Source of the DNA: Desulfobacterales bacterium
GTDB lineage: Bacteria; Desulfobacterota; Desulfobacteria; Desulfobacterales; SURF-7
NCBI GenBank assembly: GCA_030145525.1
Contig: JAQYVL010000253.1
Coordinates: 1 to 32,782, forward strand
Length of the DNA stretch: 32,782 nt
Reading direction: 5' to 3'
The position numbers and the translations under genes were made by a program. Below, piece by piece: positions 2,939-32,740 of the stretch (positions are counted from its first letter, which is position 1; each line of letters begins with the position of its first letter). The notes below the pieces were generated by a model. It did not search any database. It saw only the letters and a list, made by a program, of their open reading frames with translations, and was not told the origin of the DNA.

Positions 2939-3520
2939 TCATTTCTCAAAAAGAGAAAAAAGCTCGCTGTCAAGCCGTTCAAGCACTTCCCGGGGAGGGT
3001 CGGCGTCAAGACCGACGGCCGGGAGGATATACCGTTCAAACACCAGCATGCCAAGCCCGTAGGCAAGGATTGATGCAACAATATTTCGAGGGTCTATTTT
3101 GGAAGTGATCGATTTTTCTTCCTGCTCCCGGCGCACCAGGTCTACAAGTTTTCTGACAAACGGGAAATTACTCTGAATTTCTCCTTCGTCTTTCCCGTCA
3201 AGAAAAGTGCGGGCCATTACACGCCAGAACATGTCATTTTTGCGAATTGCTTTTGATGAACGCAATACACTACTTAAAAAATCATCCGGATCACCGATTT
3301 CTTCCCGGATACCGGCTGCAAGGGCTTCCTGGGTTTGCCTTCGGAGGGCTTCTTTGGAACCGAAATGGCGGTGAATAAGGCCGTGATTCACACCTGCCCT
3401 GTCGGCAATTTTGCGAAGCGAAACCGCTTCAACGCCTTTTTCTGAAAAAAGCTCCGCTGCTGCCCGAATCAGAGCGGTCACCACTTCATCCCGGCCATGG
3501 GGTTTCTTTGTATTTGCCAT
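2939..3520 (-). CDS. TetR/AcrR family transcriptional regulator
   Basis: TetR HTH: ALIRAAAELFSEKGVEAVSLRKIADRAGVNHGLIHRHFGSKEAL. Start placed at 3520 (MANTKKPHGRDE, preceded by GGGGAG) rather than 3580, because the upstream codons lie in a dispersed repeat. Confidence 0.85.
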   Translation of the reverse strand: MANTKKPHGRDEVVTALIRAAAELFSEKGVEAVSLRKIADRAGVNHGLIHRHFGSKEALRRQTQEALAAGIREEIGDPDDFLSSVLRSSKAIRKNDMFWRVMARTFLDGKDEGEIQSNFPFVRKLVDLVRREQEEKSITSKIDPRNIVASILAYGLGMLVFERYILPAVGLDADPPREVLERLDSELFSLFEK

Positions 3521-3554: not shown

Positions 3555-3576
3555 TTTGATGGCTTCGTAAAAAGCA
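3555..3576 (-). repeat. Partial copy (one arm) of the dispersed inverted-repeat element
   Basis: tttgatggcttcgtaaaaagca is the reverse complement of the 15488-15509 arm with 20/22 identity. Confidence 0.7.
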
Positions 3577-13883: not shown

Positions 13884-14417
13884 ATGAGCCTGCCCCGACC
13901 GCCTGGTCTTGCGAAACTGGTCATTGGACTTATTACAAAAGAAAAAAGGTTATTTAAAAAAGCCGCCTGTGATCTGACAGAAAGTTTCGGCCTGGTCGAA
14001 ATGATCAGCCCATGGCTTTCTTTTGACTATACGGATTATTATGAGTCTGAAATGGGGGCTCCGCTGTTCAGAAGGGTACTTGCATTCAAGCAACTTGTAG
14101 AGCAGACAGCCCTTCCGGAAATTAAAACGATAACTAACAGCCTTGAAGAAAAATATTCAAGGAATAACAAGCGTCAAATAAACATCGATCCCGGATATTT
14201 ACTGCTTGAGCGTTTTGTGCTTGCAACAGGGAAAAATTATTCCCACAGAATCTATATTGGCAAAAAAATCTATGCGGATTTAACACTCATTTTTCAAAAA
14301 GGTGATTTTCAAGCACTCCCGTGGACCTATCCGGATTACGCGGACAGAGATCTGCTTGTATTCCTCGGAAAGGTGCGAAACAAACTCCGGATTGACTTGA
14401 AAAGGATAAAAAAATGA
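13884..14417 (+). CDS. DUF4416 family protein
   Basis: LAKLVIGLITKEKRLFKKAACDLTESFGLVEMISPWLSFDYTDYYESEMGAPLFRRVLAFKQLV is typical of DUF4416. Confidence 0.8.
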   Translation: MSLPRPPGLAKLVIGLITKEKRLFKKAACDLTESFGLVEMISPWLSFDYTDYYESEMGAPLFRRVLAFKQLVEQTALPEIKTITNSLEEKYSRNNKRQINIDPGYLLLERFVLATGKNYSHRIYIGKKIYADLTLIFQKGDFQALPWTYPDYADRDLLVFLGKVRNKLRIDLKRIKK

Positions 14418-15295
14418 TCAGCAGCATGACAGCGTATGCAAGGGCCGAAAAAATGGAAAACGAATTGAAGGTTCTTGTTGAAATTCGCTCCTATAACAGT
14501 AAATATCTGGATATTTCTCTTAGAGTTCCGCATGGGTACGACTCTATTGAGAGCAAAATAAAGGAGATGATATCCGGCAGTATAGCGCGCGGCAGGCTTG
14601 AAATACAATTCCACATAAAAGATGAGGATGAAAAGGCATTTGCTTTTGAAATTGATAAACCAAAGGCGATTGCCTATCACAAGGCTCTTTTGGATCTGAA
14701 TGATCTTCTGAACTTGAAAAAGGATGTCCCGCTAGAATTTGTTGCAAATTCGGTGGGTATTATCAGACCGGCGGAAACCGAAAAAGATCTGGATGTTCAG
14801 TGGCCGGTTATACAGGACTGTTTTCATGAAGCAATCGAAACGTTAAAAAAAATGCGCCAAAAGGAAGGAACCTTTCTGGAAAAGGATTTCCACAAAAGGC
14901 TGGACTTTATCGAGAAATCGATAAACAGGATTGAAAAGGAGTCCGGGGACCTCTTGACCCATTATATGGAACGTCTTGAGGAACGTATTCGCGCCCTTAC
15001 AAAAGGAATAACCGAAATCGATACAGGAAGGATAGCTCAAGAAGCGGCTTTTCTCGCCGACCGCAGCGATATCTCCGAAGAGATTGTAAGGGCTGAAAGC
15101 CATATAACACAATTCCGTGAAATCCTGGCAGAAGAAGAATCATCAGGAAGAAAACTCAATTTTCTGCTGCAGGAATTCAATCGGGAATTCAATACAATGG
15201 GGGCTAAAGCCGGAAATACGAAAGTTTCACATACAATTGTTTCTGTCAAATCAGAACTTGAAAAAATACGGGAACAGGTACAGAATGTAGAATAG
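14414..15295 (+). CDS. YicC family protein (endoribonuclease-like)
   Basis: MISSMTAYARAE...VEIRSYNSKYLDISLRVP; C-terminal LNFLLQEFNREFNTMGAKAGNTKVSHTIVSVKSELEKIREQVQNVE. Confidence 0.93.
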   Translation: MISSMTAYARAEKMENELKVLVEIRSYNSKYLDISLRVPHGYDSIESKIKEMISGSIARGRLEIQFHIKDEDEKAFAFEIDKPKAIAYHKALLDLNDLLNLKKDVPLEFVANSVGIIRPAETEKDLDVQWPVIQDCFHEAIETLKKMRQKEGTFLEKDFHKRLDFIEKSINRIEKESGDLLTHYMERLEERIRALTKGITEIDTGRIAQEAAFLADRSDISEEIVRAESHITQFREILAEEESSGRKLNFLLQEFNREFNTMGAKAGNTKVSHTIVSVKSELEKIREQVQNVE

Positions 15296-15349: not shown

Positions 15350-15512
15350 AAATTTGACAGTCTCGTAAAAAGTCAGAATTTTGATGGCAAAGAAAAAAGT
15401 TCAAGTTCAAGGCGCGCAAATCCCGAGGAATGAGGCGCAGTTAGCCTACTCCGCAGTGACGAGGGATGAAGCGCAACACAGAAATTAGACTTTTTACGAA
15501 GCCATCAAATTT
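15350..15512. repeat. Dispersed MITE/REP-like element with terminal inverted repeats (full-length candidate)
   Basis: Left arm 15353-15374 tttgacagtctcgtaaaaagtc; right arm 15488-15509 gactttttacgaagccatcaaa (imperfect inverted repeat). Internal 16-bp direct repeats CGAGGAATGAGGCGCA (15424-15439) and CGAGGGATGAAGCGCA (15460-15475). Arm recurs at 3555-3576 and 23451-23472. Confidence 0.7.
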
Positions 15513-15529: not shown

Positions 15530-15790
15530 ATGGACTATACCCTTTTAAATATAGGATTTGGAAGCAGCGTAGTAGCTGAACGGGTGGTAACCATCGTATC
15601 TCCCAACTCTGCCCCGATGAAACGGCTCAAGGATGAGGCAAAAGAAGAAAAAAGACTTATTGATGCCACACATGGCCGCAGAACACGTTCGATTATCATC
15701 ATGGACAGCAATCATGTAATCCTGTCCGCCATCCTGGCCGAAACAGTATCTCAGCGTTATGAAACACTGAAGGAAACAGAACATCCATGA
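15530..15790 (+). CDS. remA: RemA/DUF370 family regulatory protein
   Basis: [72 protein letters not shown]; located between yicC and gmk. Confidence 0.92.
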
Positions 15791-16407
15791 GCGGAGAGGA
15801 CAATCAGAAAACAGAAGAAAGCAGGGGCTCTGCATCCGGAAGCAAGGGAAACCTGTTTATTATATCCGCTCCGTCAGGAGCCGGGAAGACAACTCTCTGC
15901 AAGGAGCTGTTGAAACATTTCAAGGGCATCCGTTTTTCAATATCCCATACCACAAGAGGTCCAAGACCGGGTGAAACAGAAGGGACCGATTATTTCTTTA
16001 CCTCTGAAGAAGATTTTCAGGACGGAATTAAAAATAATACCTGGGCGGAATGGGCAAAAGTTCATGGCAACTATTACGGAACATCAATAGATTTTCTGAA
16101 TGATGCACTCTCTTCAGGCAGTGATGTCATTCTGGATATTGATTTCCAGGGTGCCATGCAGATTTTAAAAAAGTACCCCGATGTAATAACAATATTTATC
16201 ATGCCTCCATCCATTGAAATCCTCAGAAGCCGACTCCAGGAAAGAGGAACGGAATCGGACGAAGTGATCGAAAGTCGCATCACAAATGCGAAACAGGAAA
16301 TTCAAAAAAAGAATCTTTACAATTATATTATAATAAATGACAAGCTGACAGATTCCAAAGAAGAGCTATTCGAAATCGTAAACAAACACCTCCACCGAAA
16401 AAATTAA
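15787..16407 (+). CDS. gmk: Guanylate kinase
   Basis: [20 protein letters not shown]...[35 protein letters not shown]. Confidence 0.96.
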
Positions 16408-23384: not shown

Positions 23385-23427
23385 ATTCGCATCCTCTTGT
23401 GCTGTGTAGTACGTCGAATGACATCAG

Positions 23428-23472
23428 GAAACAACACAACAAATAAATTGGGCTTTTTATGAAGCCATCAAA
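23428..23472 (+). repeat. Partial copy (right end) of the dispersed inverted-repeat element
   Basis: ggctttttatgaagccatcaaa (23451-23472) matches the 15488-15509 arm at 20/22; the flanking caacacaacaaataaattg also resembles caacacagaaatta left of the 15488 arm. Confidence 0.65.
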
Positions 23473-32134: not shown

Positions 32135-32740
32135 GGGGGCCTCCGGAAGTCCCCTAAAAGGGGGCGATTACGTTGGGAAAGCCCCGTTGGGGCTAAATCT
32201 AATTTATTTCAAGTTTAGTTCCATTTGCTGTTGTTCAACTTTTTCTTGATCACGGATGTATTTGCGTATGACGTCTTCATCATATCCAACTGTACTTACA
32301 CAATATCCTCTCGCCCAGAAATGCAAACCGGTTGCCTTTTTATTGCCTAATACAAAACGATGGATTCTTACTGCACTTTTTCCCTTCAAAAATCCGATCG
32401 AATGGGCAACGCTGAACTTTGGTGGAATCTTCAGGCACATGTGCACATGGTCAGGCATCAAATGCCCTTCCAACAATTCGATACCACGTTGCCGGCATAA
32501 GTCTCGAAAAATATCACCAACACGCCTACGAAACTTCCCATACAGTTTCTTTCGTCTATATTTTGGGACAAATACTACATGGTATTTGCAATCCCATCTA
32601 ACGTGCGATAAGCTTTCCTAATCAATGCATAGGGTCATCCTCCATTCCACTCCTTAGGGGCTTTCCCGGGGGATGAGCCTATATTATTTTTCGCCGGATC
32701 GGTAGAACCTTTCCGGGTCCTCCGACAGAGCCGGAGGGTT
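32135..32740 (-). mobile_element. IS200/IS605-group insertion sequence (approximate limits)
   Basis: TnpA-like coding frame flanked by subterminal hairpins: agccccgttggggct (32180-32194) on the 3' side and cctccgacagagccggagg (32719-32737) on the 5' side; ggggctttccc (32657-32667) and gggaaagcccc (32175-32185) occur in opposite orientation. Confidence 0.6.
32204..32638 (-). pseudogene. tnpA: IS200-type Y1 transposase TnpA, interrupted by an in-frame TAG near the N-terminus
   Basis: Manual translation from ATG at 32638: MTLCID*ESLSHVRWDCKYHVVFVPKYRRKKLYGKFRRRVGDIFRDLCRQRGIELLEGHLMPDHVHMCLKIPPKFSVAHSIGFLKGKSAVRIH...; HUH motif (HVH) and YCVSTVGYDEDVIRKYIRDQ catalytic-Tyr region intact; TAG at 32618-32620. 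Confidence 0.75.

Follow-up and report, generated by a model that had tools for sequence, protein, structure and literature searches.

A 151 bp MITE between yicC and remA in a Desulfobacterales genome, probably mobilized in trans and with a core likely constrained as folded RNA

The gap between the yicC and remA genes of the genome studied here contains a long imperfect inverted repeat. What is this repeat, how did it come to lie in an operon, and what maintains its structure? It is found in a window of 32,782 nucleotides, by which we mean the whole stretch of DNA that was analyzed. The window corresponds to contig C253 of an assembly of 3.17 Mb (308 contigs, 91% complete), and the nearest named relatives of its yicC are Desulfobacterales. 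A first-pass annotation had described 15350-15512 as an inverted-repeat element of MITE or REP type. The imperfect terminal inverted repeats are present, with arms at 15350-15383 and 15479-15512, and the element has no coding capacity, as had been stated. The limits were set slightly too wide. Alignment of copies from the same genome places the boundaries exactly as given in Table 1, and the outermost AAATTT on each side is an exact 6 bp target-site duplication. Two 16 bp direct repeats noted within the element do exist (15424-15439 and 15460-15475), but are a by-product of the two strands of a stem and are not retained in other subfamilies.

Table 1. Features of the yicC-remA element and its surroundings (window positions)
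Feature	Position	Strand	Basis
Target-site duplication, left copy (AAATTT)	15350-15355		Exact 6 bp match to 15507-15512
Target-site duplication, right copy (AAATTT)	15507-15512		Exact 6 bp match to 15350-15355
MITE, 151 bp	15356-15506	+	Boundaries common to 88 copies; nhmmer E = 1.9e-48
Extra outer left end, GACAGTCTCGTAAAAAGTC...	15356-15382	+	Resembles left ends of related insertion sequences
Imperfect palindrome, 124 bp	15383-15506	+	RNAalifold, 36 copies; pair counts
Inner left arm, GATGGCAAAGAAAAAAGTTCAAGTTC	15383-15408	+	Paired with 15481-15506
Right arm and right end (GACTTTTTACGAAGCCATC)	15481-15506	+	19/19, reverse complement, to insertion-sequence end in L237
Core, CAAGGCG-hairpin-GCAACACAG	15408-15481	+	Skeleton match; skeleton found phylum-wide
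Core stem, 5' strand (GCGC, ATCCC)	15414-15424	+	Covaries with 15463-15474
Core stem, 3' strand (GGGAT, GCGC)	15463-15474	+	Covaries with 15414-15424
Apical hairpin	15437-15449	+	RNAalifold; pair counts
yicC (endoribonuclease YicC-like), upstream of element	14414-15295	+	Pfam PF03755/PF08340
remA-like gene; start codon 23 nt past element	15530-15790	+	Pfam PF04025
gmk, guanylate kinase	15787-16407	+	Pfam PF00625
Second copy, right part only (truncated)	23403-23469	+	nhmmer E = 6e-7
Solo right end	3555-3576	-	Right-arm match, ≤3 mismatches

The right arm had been reported at two further sites in the window, and the element was predicted to be numerous. With up to three mismatches the arm occurs at 15488-15509 (+), 3555-3576 (-) and 23451-23472 (+), where shuffles of the window give an expectation of 0. 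In the host genome a 28-base right-arm pattern with ≤3 mismatches has 153 matches, far more than three loci, and the same pattern read backwards has 0. A blastn search scored 40 copies among 255 candidates, at 80-100% identity. Taking genome stretches around the copies, we obtained 88 copies with both ends, all sharing the same boundaries. These are flanked by exact direct repeats of 6 bp in 42 copies (shuffled-flank mean 1.29) and of 7 bp in a further 15 (mean 0.21), so that 57/88 have an exact target-site duplication, mostly of the form AnnnnT. The best copies agree with a single consensus at 99-100% identity, indicating recent amplification. Almost all (86/88) lie outside open reading frames of ≥100 codons, with the next such frame typically ~40 bp away. 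Relative to neighboring genes, copies lie in either orientation with a weak bias (30 co-directional tandem, 18 reverse). One small host contig (C229, locus L115; 3.8 kb) is crowded with four or five copies, some as the right half only. At three other loci (L047, L050 and L068, on contigs C64, C90 and C269) the right flank is identical while the left flanks differ around the element; this could reflect inter-copy recombination, strain variation or misassembly.

In the near relatives L138, L139 and L140 the yicC-remA gap is 25-40 nt long and the element is absent. The element has terminal inverted repeats, target duplications, a small size, no transposase and many copies. Given the ~150 arms, the target duplications and the empty gap in near relatives, its identity as a MITE, a non-autonomous DNA transposon, is well supported. 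Geobacter uraniireducens belongs to the same phylum as the host in current taxonomy. Its Chunjie MITE, cited in PMC10969869, is 235 bp long, multi-copy and located in or near operons; the element is likewise a multi-copy MITE in or near operons. In other relatives (L137, L155, L190) the yicC-remA gap holds different palindromes instead. Unrelated palindromic repeats occupy the gap in many relatives (L137, L141, L142, L145, L147, L148), as though insertions were favored or tolerated there.

Could the repeat instead be a fixture of the operon? A non-mobile bidirectional terminator, or some other conserved RNA that regulates the yicC-remA operon, would suit the element's place between operon genes and its good folding (z = -3.9). 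Yet near relatives have the same gap without it, some 150 copies lie elsewhere in the genome, no intrinsic-terminator pattern was found, and neither the window nor nine related loci matched Rfam at gathering score. As a primary identity this is refuted, its chance being negligible. An integron attC reading was also dropped, there being no R/L box layout by eye.

The REP-like label is not supported. REP/BIME palindromes are intergenic, multi-copy units of 20-40 bp (PMC3733652), and the element shares with them its palindromic, intergenic and multi-copy character. A Y1_Tnp domain within the window, at 32204-32476, would fit spread by a Y1 (RAYT) transposase. However, the element is 151 bp long, and its 6-7 bp target duplications and its inverted terminal repeats, which match a DDE insertion sequence, argue against Y1, so that a REP/BIME origin is very unlikely. 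Single-strand Y1 transposition is not known to produce target duplications. The Y1_Tnp domain lies in a 90-aa open reading frame on the - strand, of IS200 type (E = 4.5e-20, profile positions 44-121), and its start is seemingly missing.

What moved the MITE is suggested by related genomes. A weak family search, in which the ISNCY model NF033593 gave weak matches that led to the partner transposase, together with an end scan, located insertion sequences of ~1.9 kb with MITE-type ends in relatives. Two are full. One spans L228 1251-3137, has GATAACTTCGTAAAAAC and GATGGCATCGTAAAAAG as its ends and is flanked by the duplication AATTTT; the other spans L238 1371-3286 and has AATCTT as its duplication. 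The right end of the MITE is identical to an insertion-sequence end in a third locus (Table 1). The transposases (538-579 aa; P0001 from L228, P0002 from L234/L237) have DDE_Tnp_1_6, DDE_Tnp_1 and DUF772 domains. Their nearest family is IS1182, though at 152 and 168 bits they score below the curated cut-off of 270 for membership. A match is found in 12 of 40 relatives, and an autonomous partner with the same ends is present in three (G001, G012 and G021). IS1182-like insertion sequences (NF033551; also ISNCY, NF033593) have in common with the MITE the ends GATGGC.TCGTAAAAAG and 6 bp AnnnnT duplications. The ISDol1 group makes target duplications of 6-7 bp.

The MITE differs from these insertion sequences in lacking a transposase and retaining only ~20 bp of each end, beyond which inspection reveals no likeness. 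Searches of the host assembly, which is 91% complete, with NF033593, PF01609 and NF033551 returned no IS1182/ISNCY-like or DDE_Tnp_1 transposase. The connection of MITE and transposase therefore rests on relatives, and from this we infer that a DDE transposase mobilized the MITE in trans. The first-pass annotation had proposed such movement, and the shared boundaries, 6-7 bp duplications, empty sites and matching-end insertion sequences all agree with it; a transposase with matching ends, which it had proposed to look for, was found in relatives but not in the host assembly. In L228 a different MITE with similar ends adjoins the insertion sequence (3138-3341), the duplication AATTTT being common to both. 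Its core stem is 20 bp long and nearly perfect.

We then consider the interior. Copies occur in discrete modular sizes from 151 to 244 bp. The length classes (151, 174, 183/184, 207/208 and 220 bp) are accounted for by alternative inserts at four fixed positions, and two of these inserts, B-long and C-long, are near-inverse copies of one another. In the RNAalifold structure of 36 copies of the 151 bp class, the inner left arm is paired to the right one, with the core hairpin nested within. In these copies 98.2% of cells are paired, and there are 72 double-change cells compared with 16.5 (sd 5.6) on shuffling and ≤16 when partners are slid. Pairing is also kept where subfamilies differ, both in the arms (GATGGC/GCCATC to GACGGC/GCCGTC) and in the stem (ATCCC/GGGAT to ATCTC/GAGAT to ATCAT/ATGAT). 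Across families, MAFFT misaligned the variable stems, and single-sequence folds were used instead.

Such pairing might arise without RNA. In an ordinary MITE the palindrome could be upheld by DNA-level processes, either a cruciform or template switching between the arms plus gene conversion; the near-inverse inserts B-long and C-long resemble template-switching products, and insertion in both orientations relative to genes is in keeping with this. Template switching predicts equal numbers of G-U and A-C deviations, however. At pairs predicted on both strands, single changes in five alignments comprise 43 G-U and 19 A-C (p = 0.003), a modest asymmetry at sites that are not fully independent within a family. 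It stems from the host and G192 families, with little in G109 and G209, and favors the strand read with yicC and remA in the window. The + strand is the more stably folded in all five alignments tested, from this and other families, and the ERIC repeat of enterobacteria behaves likewise (z = -6.1 versus -2.7). The strand bias of the wobble pairs suggests constraint at the RNA level. Because pairing is kept as the letters change, and G-U is tolerated over A-C on one strand, we favor a folded RNA, and consider a purely DNA-level account possible but rather doubtful. Compensatory change and strand-biased wobble pairs thus lend indirect support to the RNA hairpin mentioned in the earlier annotation.

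The reading we prefer, with a probability of about 0.8, is of a MITE moved in trans by an IS1182/ISNCY-like DDE transposase, its interior core likely constrained as folded RNA. An enzyme of the kind seen in related genomes would have cut and inserted the element, its gene having since been lost from the host lineage or lying in a part of the genome that is not assembled. The likeness to the insertion sequence is confined to the outer ~20 bases. The interior is a long palindrome with a separate core module, CAAGGCG-hairpin-GCAACGCAG, that is also combined with other, unrelated ends. Constraint on the core would most likely act on the folded RNA upon read-through from neighboring genes. In the window the element would form a hairpin within the yicC-remA-gmk transcript, and its likeliest local effect would be to alter the processing or stability of that transcript rather than to terminate transcription.

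The core extends well beyond this family. Among 198 genomes of the phylum, 56 have the skeleton CAAGGCG-N35-65-GCAACGCAG, with 292 matches (table summed by hand) against 3 for the reversed pattern. When one match was examined per genome, most non-genic ones were hairpins with fold z roughly between -2 and -7; chance matches within genes, with z near 0, made up a minority. The stems differ among these cores, and the ends belong to at least four unrelated kinds. Those of G109 are GTGTCCATCCATAAAT with 6 bp TAnnTA duplications, exact in six elements; those of G192 are CCCGCATTTCTCACCA with 4 bp YTAR targets, whose palindromic nature weakens the duplication test; G040 and G080 have ends of GCAGGC-GT-GAAAAA type. 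G204 and G080 have cores that are 92% identical, with 32 bp flanks at the level of shuffles. This, with the variety of ends, shows that core and ends are separable. The host itself has a second MITE family (L285 at C37:46465, and C231:4951) with GTGTC..GACAC-type ends like those of G109 and the same core skeleton. A literature search returned no paper on MITEs in Desulfobacter-type genomes, nor on CAACGCAGC as a bacterial repeat.

A likeness to ERIC was suspected before the phylum search, and tested afterwards against both the published consensus (PMC2759123) and a genuine E. coli copy (L295). The consensus has CAAGGCG-N59-CCAACGCAG around a hairpin, matching 15 of 16 skeleton letters, a level reached by 0 of 4000 dinucleotide shuffles. 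The enterobacterial repeats YPAL and RU-3 gave no skeleton match. The element has the ERIC-type core motif CAAGGCG..CAACGCAG with its hairpin, the 3' side reading GCAACACAG in the window copy, and in both the same strand folds more stably. ERIC repeats are otherwise different, being 127 bp long with a TA duplication (PMC2759123, PMC10969869) and ends TATACCC..GGGTATA, another stem sequence and another phylum; the element is 151 bp with GACAG..CCATC ends and 6-7 bp duplications. That the two have a motif in common is strongly supported, and common descent would be a further claim. We know of no established origin or transposase for ERIC. At the 3' ends of Yersinia genes, according to the review PMC10969869, inserted ERIC copies unmask an RNase E site and enhance mRNA decay. 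The effect suggested above for the yicC-remA-gmk transcript is proposed by analogy with this.

Bacterial MITEs are usually described species by species and traced to a single insertion sequence that has undergone deletion. Exchangeable ends around a conserved center are hard to derive by deletion alone, and imply selection on the hairpin. We tentatively suggest, at somewhat short of even odds, that the core hairpin forms a structured, strand-specific module in its own right, present in at least two phyla and including ERIC, which has repeatedly acquired unrelated DDE insertion-sequence ends and rides their transposases. If so, ERIC would be the enterobacterial branch of a far wider superfamily, united by a folded RNA and not by transposition ends. 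Were ERIC of the same class, function could be tested in tractable systems through the binding partner of the CAAGGCG/CAACGCAG internal loop. Many families, when folded as single sequences, have a 3-by-2 internal loop below the apical hairpin; its 3' side carries GA, as in tandem G-A motifs.
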